A stretch of DNA of 64,000 bases from an uncultured Bacteroidota bacterium (GTDB lineage Bacteria > Bacteroidota > Bacteroidia > Flavobacteriales > Flavobacteriaceae). Each line of letters begins with the position of its first letter. Positions within the stretch are counted from its first letter, which is position 1. Shown one piece after another: positions 4,347 through 63,650 of this stretch. The stretch lies in NCBI GenBank assembly GCA_902515395.1, contig CABXUL010000002.1, positions 1-64,000 of the forward strand, given 5' to 3'. A model generated the notes under the pieces. The model saw nothing but the letters and a program-made list of their open reading frames with translations. It made no database searches and was not told where the DNA came from. Position numbers and translations under genes: made by a program.

Positions 4347-5315
4347 ATGAAGGAATTATTTTTAATACCAATTACACTATTTACAGTTTTAATAGCATTA
4401 TATCAAGACAACGTATCTCAAAGTTTAATACCCCCGATACAATATTCTGTTACAACGGAAATTAATTATGCAGGTAATAAGAATATGGCGCAGACCCTGG
4501 ATGTATATATACCCAAGAACAAGAAAAGAAAAAAACTACCAGTCATTGTTAATATTCACGGAGAAAATATTTTGTGGGGAAATGGAGATAAAATGTGGGG
4601 AGGAGACACACCTTTTCTTTCATACTTACTTGATGGTAATTACGCCTGTGTGAAAATTAATTATCGTTTAAGTTCAGAAGCAAAGTGGCCAGCCCAATTA
4701 TATGATTGCAAAGCCGCCATTAGATGGATTAAAGGAAACTCTGATAGGTTTGGCTTTGATAAAAATAAAATAGGGGTTCAGGGTGAACTCGCAGGAGGAC
4801 ACTTGGCTTTAATGCTAGGACTAACAAATAATGAAAAAACTATGGAGGGGGATCTAGGAAACTATTTAAATGAGGACAGTAAAATAAACTGTATTGTAAG
4901 TGGGTTTGCCCCATCTGACCTAAAGGAACTTGGTGGAAAAGAGGTTGAAACACTTTTGGGTGGGTCAATTGGAAAATTTATAAAAGAAGCTCAAGAGGCC
5001 TCTCCAATGAATTGGGTTTCAAATGAAACACAATTACCAATATATTTGTATCAAGGTAATGCTGAAAAAAAAGTACCTATGAATCAAACTAATTTATTAT
5101 TTAACCTTTTGAAAGATGCTAAATTTAAAGACATTTATTATCAAAAAATAACTAATGGCAGCAAAAGAAATTTACAAAGAGATTTAAAAGCAGATAAATT
5201 CATTAGTTCAACAATTGAGGATTTCTATAAAAAGTACTTACTAAAACAAGAAACAGAAATAAAAGTATCGGAATTATCTGTTAAATCAGCATTAGAAAGA
5301 GGACAAAGAAGGTAA
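4347..5315 (+). CDS. Catalytically degenerate alpha/beta-hydrolase (esterase-like pseudoenzyme)
   Basis: This 322-residue protein aligns end to end with the intact esterase encoded next to it (5318-6229), including shared segments such as LDVYIP, YDCKAAIRW and FGFDKNKIGV. Every catalytic position differs. The oxyanion motif HGGGW is HGENI (His71), the nucleophile elbow G-T-S-A-G-G-H is G-E-L-A-G-G-H (Leu148 for Ser), the acid Asp is Glu240, and the catalytic His is Lys273. The frame is intact and an N-terminal hydrophobic segment suggests export. It is probably a non-hydrolytic paralog, perhaps sugar-binding, made by tandem duplication. A C-terminal charged extension (about residues 295-322) is absent from its neighbour. 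The intergenic gap to the next gene is 2 bp. Confidence 0.85.
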   Translation: MKELFLIPITLFTVLIALYQDNVSQSLIPPIQYSVTTEINYAGNKNMAQTLDVYIPKNKKRKKLPVIVNIHGENILWGNGDKMWGGDTPFLSYLLDGNYACVKINYRLSSEAKWPAQLYDCKAAIRWIKGNSDRFGFDKNKIGVQGELAGGHLALMLGLTNNEKTMEGDLGNYLNEDSKINCIVSGFAPSDLKELGGKEVETLLGGSIGKFIKEAQEASPMNWVSNETQLPIYLYQGNAEKKVPMNQTNLLFNLLKDAKFKDIYYQKITNGSKRNLQRDLKADKFISSTIEDFYKKYLLKQETEIKVSELSVKSALERGQRR

Positions 5316-5317
5316 TC

Positions 5318-6229
5318 ATGAAAAAAATATTAATAATATTATTATTCTACCCAGTTCTCTTATTTGGGCAAAAATTAGATTACGCAGATGAGTTCGCTTA
5401 TGAAATTCATAGAAATCTTGATTATGCTGGAAATGGCAATATTCGTCAGGCATTAGATATTTATATACCACACAACCGAATTTCTGCAGAATTACCCCTG
5501 GTTATTTATATACACGGGGGTGGCTGGCAAAGAGGAAGTAAAAATTATGCTGGACGTGGGATGCCTTACCTACGGACAGGACGATACATCTTTGCTTCAA
5601 TTAATTATCGTTTATTGAATGAAGCTAATATTTTAGAAATGATTTACGATTGCAAAGCTGCCATTCGTTACCTAAAATCAAATGCAAAAAAATATGGTAT
5701 TGATAAGAACAAAATTGGTGTTTGGGGTACTTCAGCTGGTGGTCATTTGTCGGCAATGATTGGACTAACTTCCTCATCTAAAGAGCTTGAGGGAGATGTG
5801 GGGAATTATGAAAAAGAAAATGGCTCAGTAGCTTGTGCTGTAAATGCGTTTGGTCCTTCAAATTTTCTGACCCATTTTAAAAAATTTGAAGGGACTTTCG
5901 AAAAGTCTCCAAGATTTAAATCTTTTTTTAATAGTGATATGGAAATTGTAAAAATAACATCTCCAATTAATCATGCTGACGAATCATGCATTCCATTTTT
6001 TATATATCATGGTAGAAATGATAAAACAGTATTAATTGATGAGTCAGAAAATTTATATAGTAAACTAAAAGGATCTGGAGCAAAAGAAATTTACTTTCAA
6101 AGAATAACAGATGGTCCACATAGTGTTCGGCATGAGCGAATTACCCAGCAAATGCTCAACTTTTTTGACAAATACCTGCACAATGATAAAACAGTAATAG
6201 TTGATGATAGTGAATTCTCTTTAAACTAA
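5318..6229 (+). CDS. Secreted alpha/beta-hydrolase esterase (carbohydrate esterase-like)
   Basis: A Sec signal peptide (KKILIILLFYPVLLFGQ) leads into a 303-residue alpha/beta-hydrolase of the esterase/lipase (BD-FAE-like) type. The oxyanion motif is HGGGW (His66), the nucleophile is Ser139 in GTSAGGH, the acid is Asp235 in HGRNDKTV, and the base is His268 in DGPHSVRH. All are in the expected order. It follows the degenerate paralog by 2 bp and precedes a GH10 xylanase by 4 bp, so the three are almost certainly co-transcribed. The likely job is removal of acetyl or other ester groups from a xylan-like chain; ester specificity cannot be told from sequence. Confidence 0.9.
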   Translation: MKKILIILLFYPVLLFGQKLDYADEFAYEIHRNLDYAGNGNIRQALDIYIPHNRISAELPLVIYIHGGGWQRGSKNYAGRGMPYLRTGRYIFASINYRLLNEANILEMIYDCKAAIRYLKSNAKKYGIDKNKIGVWGTSAGGHLSAMIGLTSSSKELEGDVGNYEKENGSVACAVNAFGPSNFLTHFKKFEGTFEKSPRFKSFFNSDMEIVKITSPINHADESCIPFFIYHGRNDKTVLIDESENLYSKLKGSGAKEIYFQRITDGPHSVRHERITQQMLNFFDKYLHNDKTVIVDDSEFSLN

Positions 6230-22976: not shown

Positions 22977-24405
22977 ATGAATTCTGAAAATATAAAAAAT
23001 ATTGCTTTTATATGTGGAAGTCAACATCTATATGGAAATGAAGTAATTGAAAGAATCGAAATAAATGTCAGAGAAATAATCAATAATCTGAATAAATCTA
23101 GTGAAATTCCAGTTTTAATCTATTTGAAAAAGGTATTGACTTCCTCAAAAGATATATCAAAAACCTGTTCAGAACTAAATAACGATGAGTCATGTATTGG
23201 AGTTCTGATTTGGATGCACACCTTTTCTCCTGCAAAAATGTGGATTTCAGGACTTAAAAAACTATCATTGCCAATTTGTCATTTGCACACTCAATTTAAT
23301 AAAGAGATTCCTTGGGATAATATCGATATGGATTTTATGAATATAAATCAATCTGCTCATGGTGATAGGGAATTTTCTCACTTATTGACTAGAATGAGGA
23401 TCCCTCGTAAAATTATTGTGGGCCATTGGTCGGATGATAATGTTTTACGTGAAATTGGAGTTTGGTCAAGGAGCGCCTTAGGGTGGAATGAAATGCAAAA
23501 CTTAAATATAGCTAGAATTGGTGACAACATGAGGAATGTAGCAGTTACTGATGGAGATAAATTAGAGGCTCAAATAAAATTTGGTTTTTCTGTTAACGGA
23601 TACGATACAGATGATATTCTTGATGAAATAAATTCTTTGGAATATGAAGATTTGAATTTGATTATAGAGGATTATCACAAAGAATATGAAATAGTAGATG
23701 AGCTAAAAAAAAGGAGGATACCTTCATCAAAGTTTAATTGATGCAGCAAAAATAGAACTTGGAATTGAAAATTTTTTAAAAAAAACTGGTTGTTTAGCAT
23801 TCACTTCAACTTTTGAAAATTTAGGGGGCCTAAAACAGCTACCGGGTATATCTGTTCAGCGACTAATGAATAAAGGATATGGGTTTGGAGCAGAGGGAGA
23901 TTGGAAAACTGCTGCACTTTTAAGAACTATGAAAGTTATGGCCTTTGACCAAGATAGAGGAACCTCTTTTATGGAAGATTATACATATCATTTTGAAAAT
24001 AAAGGAATATTTGTTTTAGGCTCGCATATGCTTGAAATATGCCCATCAATCTCAGATTCTCAACCAAGATGCGAAATTCATCCTCTTTCTATTGGTAATA
24101 GAGAGGATCCCGTCCGTTTGGTTTTTAACGCAAAAACTGGAAAAGGAATTAATGTTAGTATGGTAGATATGGGTGATAAATTTAGAATTCTTGTCAATGA
24201 GGTAGAGTCAGTAAAAATAAAAAATAAATTACCAAGACTCCCAGTCGCTAGAGTATTACTTAAAGTATTTCCTAATTTTAAAGACGCAACAAAATCTTGG
24301 ATGTTAGCAGGGGGGTCTCACCATACGGTTTTCTCACTTGATCTTAATTATAGTCATTTAAAAGATTTTTGTGAAATGGCGAAAGTAGAATATATTAGAA
24401 TATAA
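22977..24405 (+). pseudogene. araA: L-arabinose isomerase, reading frame broken by +1 in an A8 run
   Basis: The first frame (22977-23741) gives an AraA N-terminal half of 254 residues ending, after [10 protein letters not shown], in an off-family tail RRIPSSKFN and a stop. The correct continuation lies in another frame and runs without a stop to 24405: [17 protein letters not shown], then [33 protein letters not shown] and [12 protein letters not shown]. The switch occurs at eight A residues (23705-23712); seven would restore a 475-residue enzyme of normal length. The enzyme turns L-arabinose into L-ribulose. Because araB, araD and both halves are otherwise well conserved, this may be a recent mutation, an assembly or sequencing error, or slippage-corrected expression. 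Confidence 0.9.
23705..23712 (+). other. A8 homopolymer at the araA frame switch
   Basis: Eight A residues directly followed by GGAGGATAC. Removing one A joins ELKK to GGYLHQ in frame, exactly where the AraA family pattern resumes. Runs of this length are known substrates for RNA polymerase slippage and are also common sites of sequencing error. The purine-rich AGGAGG that follows resembles a ribosome-binding site, but I see no in-frame ATG, GTG or TTG at the right distance for internal restart of the C-terminal half. Confidence 0.85.
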
Positions 24406-28974: not shown

Positions 28975-30537
28975 TTATCTGTATCCATTATTTGTAGGAT
29001 CAGTATTTAAAAGATTAGGATTCAACTGAATTTCAGAAAGTGGAATAGGCGCATACTGGTGTTTTTCTTGAACATTTTGTACAGCAGGCATGTTATGTTT
29101 TTGAAATTGAGTATTTCTTATACGATCTACATAAATACCCCACCTAACAAGATCAGGTTTTCTGTGACACTCTCCACACAATTCGTGTAATCTTTCCTCC
29201 CACATTTCTTCTCTAAACTGTTGCTGAGTCATATTACTCCAAGGCTGATCAGGCTCAAAAGCTCTTTCACGAACCTTATTTACATACTGGTATGCATTTC
29301 CAGGGCCATTAAGTTCATTCTCAGCCTCTCCAGCCATAAGATATATATCAGCAAGTCTAATCATTACAAAGTTTTCACTTTTATTATGTCTAGGAGAAAA
29401 GGTTTTGCTTAAATTCCATAACTTACTCATGTAAGCGAATTTAAGAGGTATCCCCTCATATTCTGTAGCAATAGTCACATCGTATCTTAAATCTCCGGCA
29501 TCCCAAGATGACCTATCAGCCAGAAGTGGAAGAGGTGATGCACCACCATAACCACCAAAATCATGATCGTTTGCAGCAAGAGCGGCTTTTAACTCACCTT
29601 GTCTTCCTTTTTTATCTTTGGGCTCATCTCTAATTCTCGGAACAAAATCGTGTCCTCTTTGATAACTATCCTCAGAATTAGTAGATAAACCTTTTGCAGG
29701 TAGACCAGTAAAATCAATCCACAAAATATGCTCAGGGTTTACTTTGTTTGAATAACCAGCATTACTCCAGTTATAAACATCACCAAAGTTCTCCATAAGT
29801 GAATGTGGAGAGTTATCAATAATATCTTTCGATGCTGTGAGCATTCCTTGCCAGTTCTCAGCGAACATATGGAATTTAGCTTCTAGAGCCCTTGCAGCCC
29901 ATTTAGACATTCTACCTAGATTAGATCCAGACCAGGAATCAGGTAACAAGCCATATGCAGTTTGAAGATCAGCTACCATAGCATCTCTAATTGTTTTAAC
30001 GGGTGTTCTCTCGAGTGAAGCTAACTCCTCAGGAGCAAGAATTTCAGTAAAAAACGGGACATCACCCCAAACACATGTTAAGTCATAATAAGCAAGTGCT
30101 CTAATCACGTAGAGCTGACCTAGAGACTGATCTATTGTAGTTTGAGATAATTTCTCATTTCCTTGAATGTTCGAAATAGCATCACTAGAATTTCTAATAG
30201 CCTCATAAAGTGTGTTCCAATAACGCTCTCCATCTGCCACTCCTTCATCCCAGGTAATATTATATGTTTCCTTAAAAATATTTCTGGTAGAGCTTATTTC
30301 ATCCGAAGGCATTTGCCACCAAGCTGGCCTGTCTCTGTGTTTGAACCAACCAGCATCAGTTAGCATCGAATAAGCTCCGTCTACTGCAATTTTAGCTTCA
30401 GCGTCACTGTTATAAAAAGTGGCAGGAGATAGACCATCTCTGAAGTCTTCAGCTAAATACTCTTCACAAGCTGATGGGATTATGATAAGGCATATTACCA
30501 TCAATAATTTCGTTAAATGTAATTTAATGTTTTTCAT
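28975..30537 (-). CDS. SusD/RagB-family outer-membrane glycan-binding lipoprotein
   Basis: The lipoprotein signal ends in PSAC (Cys24), followed by EEYLAEDFRDGLSPATFYN and AVDGAYSML, the usual start of SusD-like proteins. TPR-like segments follow (LGQLYVIRALAYYDL; MSKWAARALEAKFHMFAENW). The conserved C-terminal region includes FVMIRLADIYLMAGEAENE and EERLHELCGECHRKPDLVRWG. At 520 residues it is typical. It sits as the lid on the SusC porin and binds incoming oligosaccharides. It follows susC by 11 bp and ends at a strong terminator, so the pair forms a compact transcription unit. It is the only SusD in the window. Confidence 0.96.
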   Translation of the reverse strand: MKNIKLHLTKLLMVICLIIIPSACEEYLAEDFRDGLSPATFYNSDAEAKIAVDGAYSMLTDAGWFKHRDRPAWWQMPSDEISSTRNIFKETYNITWDEGVADGERYWNTLYEAIRNSSDAISNIQGNEKLSQTTIDQSLGQLYVIRALAYYDLTCVWGDVPFFTEILAPEELASLERTPVKTIRDAMVADLQTAYGLLPDSWSGSNLGRMSKWAARALEAKFHMFAENWQGMLTASKDIIDNSPHSLMENFGDVYNWSNAGYSNKVNPEHILWIDFTGLPAKGLSTNSEDSYQRGHDFVPRIRDEPKDKKGRQGELKAALAANDHDFGGYGGASPLPLLADRSSWDAGDLRYDVTIATEYEGIPLKFAYMSKLWNLSKTFSPRHNKSENFVMIRLADIYLMAGEAENELNGPGNAYQYVNKVRERAFEPDQPWSNMTQQQFREEMWEERLHELCGECHRKPDLVRWGIYVDRIRNTQFQKHNMPAVQNVQEKHQYAPIPLSEIQLNPNLLNTDPTNNGYR

Positions 30538-30548
30538 AATCTATATTA

Positions 30549-33500
30549 TTATAAGTTTAACCTAAATCCAATAGCTACAGAGGAAGCATAAGGGTACTGA
30601 TCGTCAGCAACTCCTTGAGCAACAGTACTAGATCCTCCATCACTAACCTCTGGATCTCCCCACTTGTAACCAGTTATTAAAAGTAAATTATTACCCGTAA
30701 GATAGACACTCGCTGTATCTACAAATGGAAGACCTGGAATTTCATCAAAATCATAATTAAGGGTAACATTTTTAAGACGGATAAATGATCCATCAACAAT
30801 ATTCAAACTACTGTTAGGTCTGAAACCACCAGCTGAGGTTCCTGCTCTTGGAATATCAGAGGTTGGATTTGAAGGAGTCCATCTATCTTCAACGATGGGT
30901 AACATGTTGGTCTCTGGACCACGACCATAATAATGCTCGTAAATAGAGGCATCAAACATTTCATGACCCTGCATACCCTGAATAAAAACATCCATAGTCC
31001 AATTTTTATAGGTTAATGTATTTCTAAATCCATAATAAAAATCTGGTTGAGGGCTTCCCAATGCTACAAAGTCATTTTGATTAATTGCGCCATCTCCATT
31101 TTGATCCACATAATTTGGAGCTCCAATACCATCAATACCTGCTCTTTGGTCTGCATCTATTTCAGCTGCAGATTTATATGTACCCTCATAAATGGCTCCA
31201 TAAAAAACTGGCATTACCTCACCTGGAACAAGTCTAAGAGCACCAGCTCCAGCTTGTGCGTGGTTTGGGTTTCTCAAAGGAATAAAAGGAGATCCTCCAA
31301 GGCTAATTACTTTATTTCTGTTAGCAGAAATTTGCAAATTAGAACTCCACACAAAGTCAGGTTTTTCTATGTTAACAGAATTCAATGTAAATTCAAAACC
31401 TTTATTTTCAACCTCACCAACGTTTTCAAGCCTTGTATCTCCAGCAGTTCCAGGAAGTGGTTTTGCTAATAATAAGTCTTTGGTTTGTTTATTGTAATAA
31501 TCAATTTCAACAGAATATCTATTATTTAAAAATCCTATTTCAAGACCAATATCAGTCTGATGAGTTTTTTCCCACTCTAAACCTGTACTTGGCAGTGAAG
31601 CCAAAATTACAGAAGGGGAAATTGATTGATTAAAAAAGATATTTCTAGGAACATATTTAGCGAGTGAATTATATGGACTGACTCCTTGTTCACCTACTAT
31701 ACCGTAACTAGCTCTTAACTTCAAACTACTAACAGCCTCAATATCTTGCATAAAATCTTCTTGACCAATTTTCCAAGCAGCTCCAACGGATGGGAAAAAT
31801 GCATATTTTTTACCTTCCTCAAAAACCGAAGATCCATCTCGTCTACCAACTAAAGTTAAGAGATATTTATCCCTAAAGCTATAATTTATCCTACCTAAAA
31901 TTGATTCAAAAGTTCTTTGATTATAGTCAGATCCTATTACATTTCTGGTAGCATCTGCTCCTAAGGAAAGATTATTAAAAGTTACAACGTCATTGGCGTA
32001 ACCTGCTCCTCCAGCGTTAACACCGCTAAATGTGTTTTTTTGCATGGTGTAACCTGCTAACACTTTAAGTGAATGGTCTCCAATATCTTTAGTATACGTA
32101 ACAGTATTTTCATTCAAAAGATCTGTCGTACGACCCATTGAAACATCAGCGTCACCTCCTGTTCCAGCATTTATTACTATAGGATCGAGGTTACCAACAT
32201 ATTGATTTCGTTTATTGAAAATTAGATTTGATCCAACAGAGCTTCTAAATGTGAAATCTTTAGCAATATCAAACTCCACATAAGCATTTGCGAGGACATT
32301 TGTTACAAAGCTATGATCTATTCTATGATTGACATCGTGAACGGGACTCCTATTAATAACACCAGATACTGGATTTGTACCATTGAAGGATCCATCATCG
32401 TTGTATACAGGTGTTGTTGGGAGCATTGAAAAGTAAACATTTCCAAGAATAACTTTATTATGTTCCTGTTTTCTATCAGTAATCATCATTCTTATTCCAG
32501 TTCTAATATTATCATTAACATTAACATCAAAATTTGCTCTTAAAGAATTTCTAACCATACCAGAAGCTTTGATAATACCTTCTTGGGCAAATCTATTGTA
32601 TGAAATAAAATAATTAGCTTTTCCAGAGTTACCACTTATATTGACATCAGTGTTATCTATTCTTCCATTTCTAGTAATTAGTCCTCTCCAATCAGTTGGA
32701 ACAATACTTTGCCAATTAGGCGCATGAATAGCATTTCCAGCCAATGATGGGTCATTTGTTCCATAATCTGTATCAACATAGGTTACACCTTCATTCCAAT
32801 ATTCAGCCCATACGCCAATACTTGCCATTTCAGGATAATTGTAAACTATTTGAGAAGAAGAATAATGATTTATAGAAACATCTACCTTTCCCTCTTGAGT
32901 GGATAGACCAGATTTAGTAGTAATTAAAATAACCCCTGCAGCACCACGAGTTCCATAAATTGCAAGTGAACTTGCGTCTTTAAGAACTTCGATTGATTCA
33001 ATGTCATTCACATTTAAATTTGAAAGGTTAAAATTAGTTCCAACAATAAAGCCATCAATCACAAATAATGGTTGGTTATTTCCATTAATCGAGCTCATAC
33101 CTCTAATTCTTATGGTGGAAGGGGCACCAGGCTCACCGCTTGTTGAAACAACGTTAACACCAGCTGCCCTACCTTGCAACATATTATCAACTCTTGCGAC
33201 AGGTTGATTTAAAAGTGCATCACCTTTAATTTGTGAAATTGAAGAAACGAGATCCTTTTTGGCAGTAGAACCATATCCGGTTATAATCACTTCATCAAGT
33301 TTAGCATAGTCTTCATCAAGAGAAATACTCAAATTACTCTCGGCTCCAACAACTACTTCTTGAGTTGTGAATCCAATAAAGGAGATTGTTAACACATCAC
33401 CATCATTTGCCTCCAAAGCAAAGTTTCCATCAAAATCAGTCACTACTCCTTTATTTGTGCCTTTTACAATTACATTTACACCTGGAAGTGGAACTGCATC

Positions 33501-33635
33501 GGCATCTGATATTACACCAGAAATAGTTTTTTGACCAATGGCTTGCATACTTATAAGTAAAGTAGCCAAAATCATCAGTAAAAATCTATTGGAACAATAA
33601 TCCAAAAGGTTTCTACCCTTTTTTAGTAAAATCAT
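30549..33635 (-). CDS. SusC/RagA-family TonB-dependent outer-membrane transporter
   Basis: After a signal (LLMILATLLISMQAIGQ) comes a CarboxypepD_reg-like domain (TISGVISDADAVPLPGVNVIVKG), a short linker with the TonB-box-like DEVIITGYG, and a plug domain with VDNMLQGRAAGVNV and VLKDASSLAIYGTRGAAGVI. A long beta-barrel follows to residue 1028, ending in a Phe-containing FRLNL. Both the SusC signature segments and the length are standard. A DQNGDGAINQNDF motif in the barrel may bind calcium. It imports oligosaccharides with the SusD encoded downstream, powered by TonB. The 188 bp divergent region towards the sulfatase at 33824 must hold its promoter. Confidence 0.96.
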   Translation of the reverse strand: MILLKKGRNLLDYCSNRFLLMILATLLISMQAIGQKTISGVISDADAVPLPGVNVIVKGTNKGVVTDFDGNFALEANDGDVLTISFIGFTTQEVVVGAESNLSISLDEDYAKLDEVIITGYGSTAKKDLVSSISQIKGDALLNQPVARVDNMLQGRAAGVNVVSTSGEPGAPSTIRIRGMSSINGNNQPLFVIDGFIVGTNFNLSNLNVNDIESIEVLKDASSLAIYGTRGAAGVILITTKSGLSTQEGKVDVSINHYSSSQIVYNYPEMASIGVWAEYWNEGVTYVDTDYGTNDPSLAGNAIHAPNWQSIVPTDWRGLITRNGRIDNTDVNISGNSGKANYFISYNRFAQEGIIKASGMVRNSLRANFDVNVNDNIRTGIRMMITDRKQEHNKVILGNVYFSMLPTTPVYNDDGSFNGTNPVSGVINRSPVHDVNHRIDHSFVTNVLANAYVEFDIAKDFTFRSSVGSNLIFNKRNQYVGNLDPIVINAGTGGDADVSMGRTTDLLNENTVTYTKDIGDHSLKVLAGYTMQKNTFSGVNAGGAGYANDVVTFNNLSLGADATRNVIGSDYNQRTFESILGRINYSFRDKYLLTLVGRRDGSSVFEEGKKYAFFPSVGAAWKIGQEDFMQDIEAVSSLKLRASYGIVGEQGVSPYNSLAKYVPRNIFFNQSISPSVILASLPSTGLEWEKTHQTDIGLEIGFLNNRYSVEIDYYNKQTKDLLLAKPLPGTAGDTRLENVGEVENKGFEFTLNSVNIEKPDFVWSSNLQISANRNKVISLGGSPFIPLRNPNHAQAGAGALRLVPGEVMPVFYGAIYEGTYKSAAEIDADQRAGIDGIGAPNYVDQNGDGAINQNDFVALGSPQPDFYYGFRNTLTYKNWTMDVFIQGMQGHEMFDASIYEHYYGRGPETNMLPIVEDRWTPSNPTSDIPRAGTSAGGFRPNSSLNIVDGSFIRLKNVTLNYDFDEIPGLPFVDTASVYLTGNNLLLITGYKWGDPEVSDGGSSTVAQGVADDQYPYASSVAIGFRLNL

Positions 33636-56297: not shown

Positions 56298-59200
56298 ATG
56301 CCCTCTAGCAACTTAAATTATCGATATAATTTAAAATTTATGCTTATGGATCACTTTTGGCGGAAGTTTTTATTTCTTTTATTTATCCCGATATATCTGT
56401 TTGGACAGTCTTCAACTTACTCTACAACATTAGATTTTAATGGATCAGATTCTTACATTACTATACCTTCGGGGATTAATGATCTTTCATTTTCTTCCGA
56501 TAAGTTTACTCTCGAAGCATGGATTAAGATTGAGAATGCTCCACCTTCTGGCTCTTCCTCTGGAAACAATACTGCGTCCAATAGAGAATATATTTTTTCC
56601 AAAAAAAATGACTGGAGTTTTTATGTTTTAAATATAAATGGCTCTTTATATCTTGAAGGAAGGTTTAGAAGAGACTATAGTGGAAATTGGCCTCAGGTAA
56701 GATCATCCTCCACAATTTCAACAGATACATGGTATCATGTTGCATTCACAAACTCAAAATCCGATGAAAGGATAAGGATTTATATTAATGGAAATCTAGA
56801 CAACTCAGAAAATTGGACTTCAGGGGGTTATGGCCTTACATCCACTACAAACCCAATTGGCATAGGAGCAAGTGTTTGGAATGGAATTGATAATCCTACT
56901 AATTTTTTTGATGGTGAAATGAGCGATATTCGTTTTTGGGACTCTGAAAGAACTCAAAGTGCAATAAATAGTTATAAAAATTCAACTCTCAATACAAATT
57001 CAACTCTTAAATTATATTACAAATTAAATGAAGGAAGTGGTTCAACAATTAATGATTTAAGTGGTAATTCAATAGCGGGAACCGCAAGAGGGAGTTATCA
57101 ATGGATGCCTCTTCAGACAAGTGCAAGGTCAACCCCAACTGGTGAGGTCCTTGATCAAGAAAATACTAGTTTAAATGCGGGTGCAGGAGGAACAGCTCAA
57201 TGGCAATCATTTACTGTATCAAATACCGGTCAGCTTTCTGCAGTGTCATGGAGAATGGCATGTCCAGTTATTGACGGCAACGCCCAACCTGTTCAGTTGA
57301 GTGTTTACAGAGGTGAGGGAACTGGAGGTGCTTTGGTTGCACAAAGTCAAAACTTGACCACTCCTGCCTACAGAGATAGTAGTGGCAATTATATCTCAGG
57401 AGAATATGTTTTATTTGATATGAGTTCAAATAATGTGTCTGTTTCCTCTAATGAGGTCATGACAGTTAAATTAGAACTGACCTCGGGTAATCAAGATGTT
57501 GGTTTTTTAAGTCTTCATACTGGAAATCCTTACCCTAGAGGTAGGGGCTCAAATAATGTAAGTTGGGATTATCTTTTTAAAGCCTATGTTATACCGGGAT
57601 CGCAATCCACCACTCCTACAGTTTATTTTGAAAATGGAACCTGTAAGTGTCCAAACGCCTCAGCAGGGGATACTGCTACAATTAGCGGTACAACATATAC
57701 TGTTGTCAATAACTCTAGCATAGCTGGTCAAATTTCAAGCGGAAATTATAATTTGTGTACTTCACTTGTTACCGATATGAGTGAACTTTTTAAAAATAAA
57801 GGTTCATTCAACTTTGATATTGGTTTTTGGGATACTTCAAATGTGACAACAATGAAAAGAATGTTTCAACAGGCTAATGTTTTTAATCAAGACATAGGCT
57901 CTTGGAATACTGCAGCAGTTACAAATATGCAAGAAATGTTTTATCTAGCAAGAGCATTCAATCAAGACATAGGGAATTGGGATACTTCTAGTGTGACCAC
58001 TATGCATGTCATGTTTAGGGAGGCAGTAGCATTCAATCAAGATATAGGCAGTTGGAATACTTCTAATGTGTCCCATATGAATTATATGTTTCTTGGAACA
58101 TCATTCAATCAAGATATATCGGGTTGGTGCGTTGGAAATATTTCTTCCCAACCATCTAACTTCAAAAATTTTTCACAATTAAGTGATAATAATACTCCTA
58201 ACTGGGGGTCATGTCCGGCTCCCATCGTTTTTGATTCGGGTACCTGTAAGTGTCCAAACGCCTCAGCAGGTGATACTGCTACAATTAGCGGTACAACATA
58301 TACTGTTGTTAATAACTCTAGCATAGCTGGTCAAATTTCAAGTGGAAATTATAATTTGTGTACAACTTTGGTAACTGATATGGAAGGCTTATTTAATGGT
58401 AATACCGATAACCCTAACATTTCTTTTTGGGATACTAGTTCAGTTACTAATTTTAGGGCAATGTTCTGGGGTTCTAATTTTAATCAAGATATAAGCTCTT
58501 GGGATACTAGTTCAGCAACATCATTTGAGGTAATGTTTTATAATGCAGGATCATTTAATAAAAATATAGGTACTTGGAATACCTCTTCAGTTACAACTAT
58601 GAAGGGAATGTTTTGGAACGGAGCTAATCAATTTAATAATGGCGGAAATAGCTCGATAGGTAATTGGGATACCTCCTCAGTTACTGATTTTAGTTACATG
58701 TTCGCTAATGCAGGTTCATTTAACCAAGATATAGGAAATTGGGATGTTTCGGCAGCTACAGATATGAATGTTATGTTTAATAATGCATCTTCGTTCAATC
58801 AAGATATTTCTTCTTGGTGCGTTGGAAATATTTCTTCCCTGCCATCCAATTTTAAAACTAATTCACCATTAAGTAATAATAATACTCCTAACTGGGGGTC
58901 ATGTCCGTCTCCCATCGTTTTTGATTCGGGCATCTGTAAATGTCCTGGTGCATCTGTAGGAGATACTGCTACAATTAGCGGTACAACATATACTGTTGTC
59001 AACAACTCAACTATAGCAGGTCAAATTTCAAGTGGAAATTATAATTTGTGTACAACATTGGTAACTAGCATGGCTGGCCTTTTTACAGATAATTCAAACT
59101 TTAATGCAAATATTGGGTTCTGGGATACATCCAATGTTACAAGCATGAACCGTATGTTTTGGTTGGCGAGTAGCTTTAATCAAAATATTGGAAATTGGGA

Positions 59201-62200
59201 TGTATCTAGTGTTACTGATATGGAACAAATGTTCAACCAAACAATATTTAACCAAGATATTGGTAATTGGGATGTTTCAAAAGTAACTAATATGCATGCT
59301 ATGTTTCGTGCTAACAGTCAGTTTAATCAAGATATATCCTCTTGGAATACATCCAGTGTAACCAGTATGATTGGAACATTTGAGAATGCTTCCTCATTCA
59401 ACCAAAATATAAGCAGTTGGAACACATCCTCTATTATAAATATGAATTATATGTTTGTTGGTGCAACTGCATTTAATCAACCCATTGGAAGCTGGAATGT
59501 ATCAAGTACAACCCAGATGAATGGAGTCTTTAAAAATGCGAGTGCTTTTAATCAACCGCTTGGCAATTGGAATACCTCAAATGTTACTTCCATGAATGAG
59601 ATGTTTAGCGGTGCGAGTGCTTTTAACCAAAATATTTCCTCTTGGTGCGTTGGAAATATTTCTTCCCAACCAACTAACTTTAAAGCTAATGCACCCTTGA
59701 GTAATAATAATACCCCTAACTGGGGAACATGTCCCCCTCCCCCTGGCCAAATTGTTTTTGATTCAGGAACTTGTAGATGCCCTGGAGTCGCTGTTGGACA
59801 GACAGCAACAATAAGCGGAACAACATATACTGTTGTAAATAATTCAACTATAGCCGCGCAGATCTCCGCTGGCAATTATAACCTCTGTACCACCCTTGTT
59901 ACTGACATGAATAGCCTTTTTAAAAATAAAGGTTCATTCAACTCCAATATTAGTTTTTGGGATACCTCAAATGTGGATAATATGAGTTGGATGTTTCACA
60001 ATGCCTATGCTTTTAACCAAAATATTGGGAATTGGGATGTTTCCTCCCTTCATCATATGAATGGTATGTTTAAAAATGCTGATAGTTTCAATCAAAATAT
60101 TGGAGGATGGAATACTTCCTCAGTTAGAAACATGGAGGAGACACTTTTTAGTATGAGAGATTTTAATAACGGTGAAGCACAAGGCTTATCAAATAATCCA
60201 CTTGGTTGGAATACATCAAACGTTACCAACATGAAAAATCTCTTACGTGGCTCGGAAAAATTCAATCAAAATATTGGTTCTTGGGACACATCTAATGTTA
60301 CAGATATGAGTGGATTATTTCTTTCTGCCTCACGATTCAATCGCCCTATTGGAAGTTGGAATACAACTAAAGTAACAAATATGAATGGGATGTTTGAGAG
60401 TGCAAGTTTATTTAACCAAGCAATTGGAAATTGGAATACATCAAGTGTAACTGACATGGGTAACATGTTTAAGTATGCTTCAGTTTTTAATCAAGCGATC
60501 GGAAGCTGGAATACAGGCGATGTAACATCATTTAGTGCTACATTTATGGGTGCTAATAGATTTAATCAAGATATTTCTGGATGGAATACTTCATCTGTAA
60601 CGAATATGTATAGTATGTTTCGTGATGCATCAAACTTCAATCAAAACATTCCTAATTGGAATACATTAAATGTCACGCATATGGGTTCAATGTTCTACAA
60701 TGCAAGTGCTTTCAATGGGAATATAGGTAATTGGAACACTTCTAATGTGACTAATATGTCACATATGTTAAACGATGCTAGAGCTTTTACTCAAGATATT
60801 GGAAATTGGGATGTTTCAAATGTAACAAACATGAATGCTATGTTTGCGAATAATACCTCCTTTAATAAGGATATTGGAAGCTGGAATACTTCATCAGTAA
60901 CAGATATGGCTGATATGTTCAATGCAGCATCTGCATTCAATCAAAATATTTCTTCTTGGTGTGTAGGAAATATTTCTTCCCTACCCGCTGACTTTAAAAC
61001 TAATTCACCATTAAGTAATAATAATACTCCTAACTGGGGAACATGTCCAAATCCAGTATGTTCAATATCTATTAATCTTACTAGCAATGCGCCAACTCAA
61101 ACCCAATCAGTTACTCTTGGAGCAGGTATTACACCTGTGACTTTTTCAGTGACCTCGTCGCTTTGCACCAGTACTTTAACAGTTAGTGCCACCAACCTTC
61201 CTCCAGGTATTTCGATGGTATTTAATAATAACGTCGCTTCAATTAGTGGTACGCCTACTAATCAAGCCACCGGTACATATAATTATCTAATCACTGCTTC
61301 TAGCAGCTCAACGGTTACTTCAGTTACTGGTTATATATCGATTGTCTCGACTCCAACAACAGTAACAGATACTAGTTCAGGTTGTTCAATCAACGCCGAT
61401 CTTCAAGGAACAGGTCTTCAGATATCTACCATTTCAATTGGTTCACCCACGATATCAATTCCATTTACAACAACATGTTCTGGAACACTTACTGTTACTT
61501 CCACTGGTATACCCCTGGGTATGCAAATGGTTTTTGTCAATAATATTGCTACCATATCGGGAACTCCAACGGGATCTGTAACTGGCACTTATGATTATAC
61601 TATACTTGCATCAGTTGGCGGAACAGCCTCGTTAACAATTAATGGTAGATTATTACTCAAGCCTGACGCTGACAATGATGGTGTTGATGATCAATATGAT
61701 AAATGCCCTGAAACAAATCCAGGAGATACTGTTGATGAAAATGGTTGTTCTGAAATTCAATTAGATGCCGATTTGGATGGTATTTTAAATATAGACGACA
61801 TTTGTCCTAACACGTCTCCCAGCGAAACAGCTAATGCAGAGGGTTGTGGAGAAACTCAAGTAGATACTGATAAAGACGGATTCCCCGATGTTATTGATAA
61901 TTGTCATACTAGTTATAATCCTAATCAAAAAGATTATGATAATGATGGTCAAGGTGATGTCTGTGATCCTGACCCAATTGTTGAATTTAATGTATCACTT
62001 ATTAAAGAAAATGCTGAACTTGGAGTAATGACTGGAGATGTTAGTTCAACTAGCCTAATGGGCAGTAAAATTACCTCCATAGAATTTAATTCCAATGGCT
62101 ATTTTACGCTTTCAAATAATCTCAAAATTGAATTAGCAAATGAATTAGATTACGAGGAAAAAACTTCGCATTCTTTTACCTTAACTGTTAAAACTGCTAA

Positions 62201-63650
62201 TGGTGGTCAAACTACTGTTGAAGGGGAAATTCCTGTGGAGGATATTCCTAATCCGCAATACACTGCACCATTTTTCATTTCGGTTTTTGATATTGGACCT
62301 GGAACGTTCCCATTGTCTCAAGATATAAGTGGAACTACCTATTTGCGATTGAATCGTGAGACAGTTGGTAGGTATCATAATCCATTTAATCGTGGTGTTG
62401 GTAAATGGAAAGTAAGAAAAAATATAAGTGGTGGTGCTGATGCTCATCTTTTTGCCATTAAAAGTGAGCCTCCAAAAACTAGAAAATCAGATGAGGAAAG
62501 TGAGGGCTATCTTGCTTTTATTAATCCTCCTGATTTTAATAATCCACAAGACCACAATCAAGATAATATTTATGAGGTTGAAGTAACCTTTATTAACCTT
62601 GAGGATGGAGCTGTTGAGGTGCCTGTCCCTGTCACACAATTCCAACTGCAAGTCCCAGAAGGAGCCACCAGCGCACTTGAGCTTCAATCCAGACTTGCAC
62701 TTCCAGATGATGACTCTGATGGCGATGGCGTTCCTGATATTATTGACAACAGCCCTGTGGTATTTAACCCAGACCAGGCAGATGAAGACGGAGATGGTGT
62801 TGGTGATGTTTCTGATGATTCTGACCATGATGGGGTTTGGAATCCCGAGGATGAATGTCCTGACACTCCACTTGGTGTTAAAGTCGATGCATTTGGTTGT
62901 GAGATATTCTATCTACCTTCTGATAATTTCAATGTATATAAAACTGAAAGGTGTGTTGATAATCATTCCATTGGAATTGAGTTTGAGAACATATCACATT
63001 CCTATACTATTAATATCTCTGGTGCTATGGATTACTCTGAGATTTTTAGTGAAAAACAGTGGATTATTACCAACCTATCCAGTGGACAATATAATATCTG
63101 CCTTGGTGTCAATGGAATAAATAGTAATGAGTTTGAAAGGTGTTTCGAGATTAGGCTTAATGACCCCACTCCTCTTTCGGTATATACTAACGATACAGAT
63201 TTAACTGCTTTAGCGGATGATACCCTTGATTCGGTTAATTTTGAAATGGCTGGCGGATCAGTTTACAATATCGAGCATAATGGCATAACAACACAGACCT
63301 CCCGATCCAGTCACTCCTTGGCCCTTAGAAAAGGTCTAAACACTGTTAGGATAACTACTGATCAAGAATGTCAAGGTGTTTTCGAAAAACAATATTTCAA
63401 CTCTGAAACCATTGCCTACACACCAAATCCTTTTGAAGATGAATTGCTAATTTACGTAGGTGGGCAGGATGAAAATATTTTAGTTGAAATATTTACTACA
63501 GCTGGAAAACTCATTAGTTCTGATTATTATAAGCTCAATGAGTCTGATAGAAATATTTCAGTAAATACTTCTAATTATAAAATGGGAAGTTATTTATTCA
63601 AGGTTAATGCAAATACGGTGAAAAAATCTTTTATGGCTATAAAAAAATAA
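56298..63650 (+). CDS. Giant T9SS-secreted repeat protein: LamG, DUF285 repeats, Ig-like, thrombospondin type 3, sorting tail
   Basis: This 2450-residue protein has a signal ending YLFGQ; in-frame ATGs at 56340 and 56346 sit closer to it than the ATG at 56298. Order: LamG-like lectin domain (about 33-265, with [12 protein letters not shown] and [14 protein letters not shown]); a beta region (about 280-435); four blocks starting with a CKCP-type cysteine motif at residues 449, 650, 880 and 1159. Each block has a [13 protein letters not shown] head, DUF285/BspA-like units (F-N-Q-D-I-G-x-W-D-T-S-x-V-T-x-M-x-x-M-F) and a WCVGNISS tail. Then come two Ig-like domains (1586-1784), calcium-binding thrombospondin type 3 repeats (1788-1894, 2134-2204) around a cadherin-like region, and a type A sorting domain ([15 protein letters not shown] to the end). 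It is probably a cell-surface adhesin or glycan-binding scaffold. Confidence 0.9.
57642..61040 (+). repeat. Coding tandem repeats (DUF285-type units in four blocks)
   Basis: The blocks start at 57642, 58245, 58935 and 59772 and contain about 5, 6, 8 and 14 W-x-x-S-type units, counting the closing WCVGN unit of each. Head segments of blocks 1 and 2 (57642-57760 and 58245-58363) differ at only three of 119 bases by hand count. Blocks 3 and 4 are more diverged. The pattern indicates repeated duplication, with the first two heads very recently copied or gene-converted. Confidence 0.9.

Follow-up and report, generated by a model that had tools for sequence, protein, structure and literature searches.

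A predicted pseudoesterase of the BD-FAE family encoded directly upstream of an active-looking relative in a flavobacterial glycan locus

BD-FAE (PDB 6TKX/6XYC) is a bifunctional feruloyl and acetyl-xylan esterase whose closest homologues are located in xylan-type loci, according to the accessible part of PMC8165983. Its catalytic triad consists of Ser128, Asp237 and His269, the oxyanion hole is formed by Gly53 and Ser128, and crystal packing of the protein gives an open-ended oligomer whose interface measures 1055 Å2; that part of the article describes no inactive paralogue. Two other systems are close in principle, as presented in the accessible parts of the respective articles. The C-terminal CE4-like pseudoesterase domain of PgaB, a dead relative of carbohydrate esterases lying beside an active one, takes part in polymer binding (PMC7828330), and the AdoMetDC prozyme of trypanosomes is a dead paralogue activating its partner by heterodimerisation (PMC5201418). 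Natural pseudoesterases derived from carbohydrate esterases seem to be little described, PgaB being the single example named in the accessible part of PMC7828330. Among the literature matches listed, judged by titles and the beginnings of abstracts, no BD-FAE-family pseudoesterase was recognised. Pseudoenzymes as such are already known; what is new at the locus described here is that a pseudoesterase of the BD-FAE family is paired with a relative that looks active.

The pair lies on the forward strand of the window (the whole analysed stretch of 64,000 nucleotides, taken from an assembly of 1.67 Mb that is 68% complete). The first gene (4347..5315) encodes a protein of 322 aa in which Ser and His are lost and the oxyanion loop is rebuilt; the second (5318..6229) encodes the active-looking partner of 303 aa. 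Both belong to the BD-FAE family (PF20434), the profile matching the first protein with E 1.4e-51 and 175.5 bits against a cut-off of 26.8 (profile positions 1-213 of 215) and the partner with E 3e-55 (1-215 of 215). The two proteins are alignable along their length with 37% identity (alignment A2), share the top three PDB sequence matches (6TKX and 6XYC, both BD-FAE, and 6NKF) and start with a hydrophobic, signal-sequence-like stretch, as judged by eye. A sequence-only reading of this DNA had described a tandem esterase pair aligning throughout, with an open full-length frame in the first copy. Both points were confirmed: the two ORFs are in place and match PF20434 over nearly the whole profile, and the 322-aa frame is open, as in all three full-length orthologues. 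The stop-start junction TAA-TC-ATG (5313..5320, forward strand) leaves a spacing of 2 bp, which suggests translational coupling.

The serine-esterase route, established for enzymes of the alpha/beta-hydrolase fold, requires a nucleophile, a base and an oxyanion hole. Residue mapping finds all the necessary elements in the partner (HGGGW from His66, Ser139, Asp235 and His268), which should be an ordinary esterase. In the first protein, Leu148 replaces Ser in the nucleophile elbow (GELAGG, codons 146-151, 4782..4799). The oxyanion loop (HGENILW, codons 71-77, 4557..4577) contains Glu73 instead of Gly and also, beyond what had been observed earlier, a two-residue insertion in comparison with HGGG--W. 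The site of the catalytic His in relatives is taken by Lys273-Arg274 (codons 273-274, 5163..5168, within NGSKRN); the residue standing opposite the old His depends on the alignment, being Lys273 in one and Arg274 in the other. His occurs only twice in the whole protein, at 71 and 152, and neither residue is at the base site. The acid position (codon 240, 5064..5066, in GNAEKK) is occupied by Glu240, which could still be usable as acid. Where BD-FAE has Ser128, Asp237, His269 and its oxyanion loop, the first protein thus has Leu, Glu, Lys or Arg and a rebuilt loop. With Leu148, no base His and Glu73 in place of Gly, it does not have the make-up of an active serine esterase, and without a nucleophile, a base and an intact oxyanion hole it should no longer form the acyl-enzyme. 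If pseudoenzymes are defined by missing conserved catalytic residues, the loss of Ser and His places the first protein among them.

The catalytic columns were compared across relatives in two sets. The genus-centred alignment includes 65 rows, 62 of them from the genus together with L010, L026 and one distant row of 233 aa; two of the 64 genus matches are unrepresented, and rows sharing the last 150 residues were filtered out. The family-level census comprises 64 rows from 60 regions, namely matches beyond those already in the genus set, down to E 1.6e-38, and four tandem pairs. Ser occupies the nucleophile column in 62 of the 65 genus-centred rows, the exceptions being the first protein and its two orthologues, and in 63 of the 64 family-level rows, with Asp in the lone exception (L130). 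His is found at the base column in 58/65 genus-centred rows (the remainder being the three dead rows plus four with a gap) and in 63/64 family-level rows. Glu73 is confined to the three dead orthologues among the genus-centred rows and does not occur in any of the 64 family-level rows. A Glu directly before the nucleophile, such as Glu147, is also present in four family-level rows.

The acid column behaves differently. It holds Asp in 37, Glu in 23, Asn in 4 and Gln in 1 of the genus-centred rows, and apart from the three dead orthologues all of the Glu rows (20) have Ser and His. The family-level rows carry 48 Asp, 11 Pro, 3 Ser, 2 Ala and no Glu; with such mixed residues the column is loose. 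The change of Asp to Glu240 is therefore conservative and no clear loss in this genus. Accordingly, the earlier statement that all four sites were lost holds for the nucleophile, the base and the oxyanion hole, which are clearly gone, but not for the acid.

Six other tandem BD-FAE pairs, chosen by eye from match coordinates (G119, G082, G117, G161, G005:C4 and G019:C15), carry Ser and His in each of the two copies, and a dead pairing is therefore not the rule; among the tandem pairs examined, the present pair type is the only one in which a dead copy adjoins an active one. In the tandem pair represented in the genus by G005:C4:44657-46364 and G019:C15:6210-7980, HGGG is replaced by YGSA in one member and by HGSG in the other, both members retaining Ser and His. 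The BD-FAE-like protein L130 (genome G127:C45:62845-63396; ORF L154:8621-9574), from a different genus, has GADSGG at the elbow and Pro at the His column and is likely another pseudoesterase. Since it too has lost Ser and His, loss of catalytic residues has occurred in the BD-FAE family more than once. Unlike the first protein, L130 has no esterase beside it that could be recognised by eye among the ORFs with 200 aa or more in the surrounding 18 kb, and its neighbours are housekeeping-like genes, also by eye.

Orthologous pairs, for which a search in other flavobacteria had been proposed, were found in two other genomes of the genus. The dead copy is 96% identical in G006 (the record uncultured Bacteroidetes AG-914-G02) and 73% identical in G005 (a metagenome-assembled Flavobacteriaceae genome). 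All three genomes, even at 73% protein identity, share Glu73, Glu147, Leu148, Glu240, Lys273 and Arg274, and the recurrence in two other genomes shows that an error in a single assembly is not the cause. Synonymous differences occur among the orthologues at codons 147 and 148 (Leu148 is CTC/CTT/CTC), and loop residues 74-75 vary (HGENI, HGESV). Overall, the three dead orthologues agree at 228 of 322 positions. In a fourth genome, G013, the contig starts inside the 3' end of the dead gene, directly before the partner. The partner clade is thus present in 4 of the 22 genus genomes, most of which are incomplete, and the dead gene lies directly upstream in each, whole in three and known from its 3' end at the contig start in G013. 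Stop and start codons are 2 bp apart in the window, G006 and G005, and they overlap in G013 (TAATG).

The surroundings of the pair are not constant. In the window, G006 and G013 (the last by eye), a GH10-type gene comes after the pair and a sulfatase gene lies farther along. The neighbours of the G005 pair are a 7TM-HD gene on one side and an ADP-ribosylglycohydrolase-like gene on the other, and sulfatases and a GH127 gene lie farther out; no GH10 adjoins this pair, so the xylan setting is not constant either. Fifteen window genes were tested against the 29-kb G005 contig, and orthologue-level matches were obtained for the pair only, the other matches being sulfatases at 24-32% and one dehydrogenase at 28%. 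Joint retention of the two genes in differing surroundings makes a shared function likely.

Beyond these genomes, profile A1 detected hits in the own genome, G023 and G079 among 397 family genomes (E 1e-40), and the G023 and G079 hits keep Ser and His. No dead orthologue beyond the own genome was found in 395 genomes drawn at the order level (profile, E 1e-45). A scan of genome contigs gave five loci: those of the two orthologues and of G013, plus two distant hits. The first three were identified as contigs G006:C9, G005:C20 and G013:C63 by their equal lengths and agreeing coordinates. Two scans of viral contigs for further relatives yielded none. Within the searches made, the pair occurs in one genus only, the named records of which are labelled as an uncultured Bacteroidetes and as uncultured Flavobacteriaceae; from these labels and from the locus itself, the genus is probably marine.

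A tree built from 36 of the 65 rows unites the dead and partner clades with the active sequences L010 and L026 from other genera in one clade (support 98/96). Sisterhood of the dead and partner clades has support 86/49, at a node where, as the tree tool warns, long branches meet; the stems measure 1.11 changes per site for the dead clade and 0.93 for the partner clade. A tandem duplication followed by fast change is a plausible origin of the pair.

The dN/dS ratio of the dead gene is 0.206 for window-G005 (bootstrap 0.136-0.307), 0.203 for window-G006 (0.093-0.48) and 0.211 for G006-G005 (0.142-0.313), and four estimators give 0.12-0.28. A crude uniform-substitution null, with 209/966 changes as observed, produced about 10 stops per copy and left none of 2000 frames open. 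It could still be supposed that the first gene is a decaying duplicate, a pseudogene in progress that happens to be open. Its constraint is weaker than that of the partner (dN/dS 0.20 versus 0.07-0.13), its stem is long, and the window copy lost a Cys present in both orthologues. However, dN/dS is well below 1 in all three comparisons, the frames are open in three genomes, and the dead-site residues are identical in spite of the synonymous codon changes at 147 and 148. Decay is largely refuted and is given a very small probability; the dead gene is not decaying. The frameshifts or neutral drift that would have spoken against the sequence-only reading did not appear in the orthologues, and a dN/dS of about 0.2 indicates purifying selection. 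This reading had gone further and proposed selection for a non-hydrolytic function, naming glycan binding and partnering of the active enzyme as candidates. What is well supported by dN/dS, the orthologous pairs, the open frames and the retained dead sites is selection for a role other than serine-esterase catalysis, with glycan binding and partnering as putative roles. Retention by selection, used here as an additional criterion for a pseudoenzyme, is likewise seen in the dN/dS of about 0.2 and the conservation in orthologues.

The window contains GH10, GH2 and GH43 genes, an arabinofuranosidase domain, arabinose-catabolism genes and eleven sulfatases (PF00884), the latter spread over positions 7532-56187 and interspersed with GH2, GH43 and the arabinofuranosidase-domain gene. 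Polysaccharide utilization loci are characterised by a SusC/SusD pair together with linked carbohydrate-active enzymes. In the window, a SusD-like gene (28975-30537) and a SusC-like gene (30549-33635, assigned by eye) are located about 23 kb from the esterase pair, with GH10, GH2, GH43, the arabinofuranosidase domain and sulfatases between. The glycoside hydrolase, arabinose and sulfatase genes suggest that the substrate may be a sulfated glycan containing arabinose and xylose.

There is about an even chance that the product of the first gene is a secreted pseudoesterase which purifying selection maintains as a non-catalytic partner of the active-looking esterase 2 bp downstream. A partner-subunit role is favoured because of the gene coupling and the pairing, the orthologue sample behind it being three full sequences from one genus. 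Both proteins would be co-produced and would cooperate, most likely by forming a mixed oligomer of dead and active subunits. The dead subunit would hold the partner, the decorated glycan or both, and the active subunit would remove the acyl group; this glycan would be acylated, perhaps sulfated, and contain arabinose and xylose. A mixed assembly is conceivable in view of the BD-FAE oligomer in crystals presented in the accessible part of PMC8165983, although that oligomer may be mere packing. The AlphaFold2 model built on the seven-row alignment A2 has a mean pLDDT of 46, too low for mapping an interface or a pocket. The AdoMetDC prozyme, in the accessible part of PMC5201418, is similarly a separate dead paralogue tied to an active one and works in the way proposed here; it is an unrelated enzyme, and for the esterase pair activation is a proposal. 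A stronger version, according to which the dead esterase is an obligate heteromeric subunit of the active one (a prozyme-like activator or scaffold) and the pair is a two-gene module fitting different marine flavobacterial glycan loci, is rather doubtful. If true, it would provide a regulatory or scaffolding pseudoesterase for glycan deacylation.

Alternatively, the pseudoesterase could be an independent glycan binder with a kept furrow, which concentrates the decorated glycan without touching the partner, the operon merely providing co-expression. Binders derived from carbohydrate-active enzymes have precedents, including the CE4-like PgaB domain, and a CtCE2 mutant without activity bound cello-oligosaccharides more tightly, both in the accessible part of PMC7828330. 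PgaB differs from the first protein in belonging to the CE4 family, in being fused in one chain and in serving the formation of a biofilm polymer rather than degradation. The glycan locus with its GH10, GH2, GH43, arabinofuranosidase domain and 11 sulfatases fits a binder as well. The pI of the dead protein (9.0/9.2/7.2) is more basic than that of the partner (7.8/7.2/5.6) in three genomes, as might be expected of an anionic-glycan binder, but this is not distinctive, ranking 5 of 40 among the window ORFs. The G005 orthologue has a plausible lipobox, LTAAC, whereas residue 19 is Cys in G006 and G005 but Tyr in the window, and the surroundings of the G006 Cys are not a canonical lipobox (all by eye). 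Surface lipoprotein anchoring is therefore not conserved, and the conserved lipobox Cys of a surface glycan-binding lipoprotein was not found by this inspection. Conservation around the former active site is not significant either (58/68 residues versus 162/213 elsewhere, p 0.07 with linear windows; of five window sizes, the narrowest alone gives p 0.024). Such a free-standing binder is possible but tentative. Another explanation, according to which the site was rebuilt for another reaction and Glu73, Glu147, Glu240 and Lys273/Arg274 now make up a different catalytic centre or bind a metal, is improbable. These residues are invariant in the three orthologues, and Glu73 with the loop insertion is limited to the dead clade among the 65 genus-centred rows; but with 228/322 positions invariant anyway, invariance is weak evidence, and Glu before the nucleophile (4/64 family-level rows) and Glu at the acid column (20 other genus rows) occur elsewhere.

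At the level of sequence, the first protein appears to be a real, well-preserved pseudoenzyme, with the partner-subunit role as its putative function; the case is clean and testable, but narrow. It comes from a degradative, probably marine locus, has orthologues and bears signs of selection, and the active-looking relative encoded two bases further on offers an internal control. As both genes match the same esterase family, the pair is also a warning to annotation pipelines.

Several further features were observed in the window. At codon 19 of the dead gene (4401-4403), the window copy encodes Tyr where G006 and G005 have a Cys, near the end of the hydrophobic N-terminus; the localisation may have changed recently. 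The L-arabinose isomerase gene (AraA, 22977-24405) is divided into two ORFs in different frames, one for the N-terminal and central parts and one for the C-terminal part, so that either the genome carries a frameshift here or the assembly is wrong; upstream of it, the genes for an FGGY kinase and a class II aldolase have open frames. Positions 56298-63650 encode a protein of 2450 aa with many similar repeats, recognised by eye.
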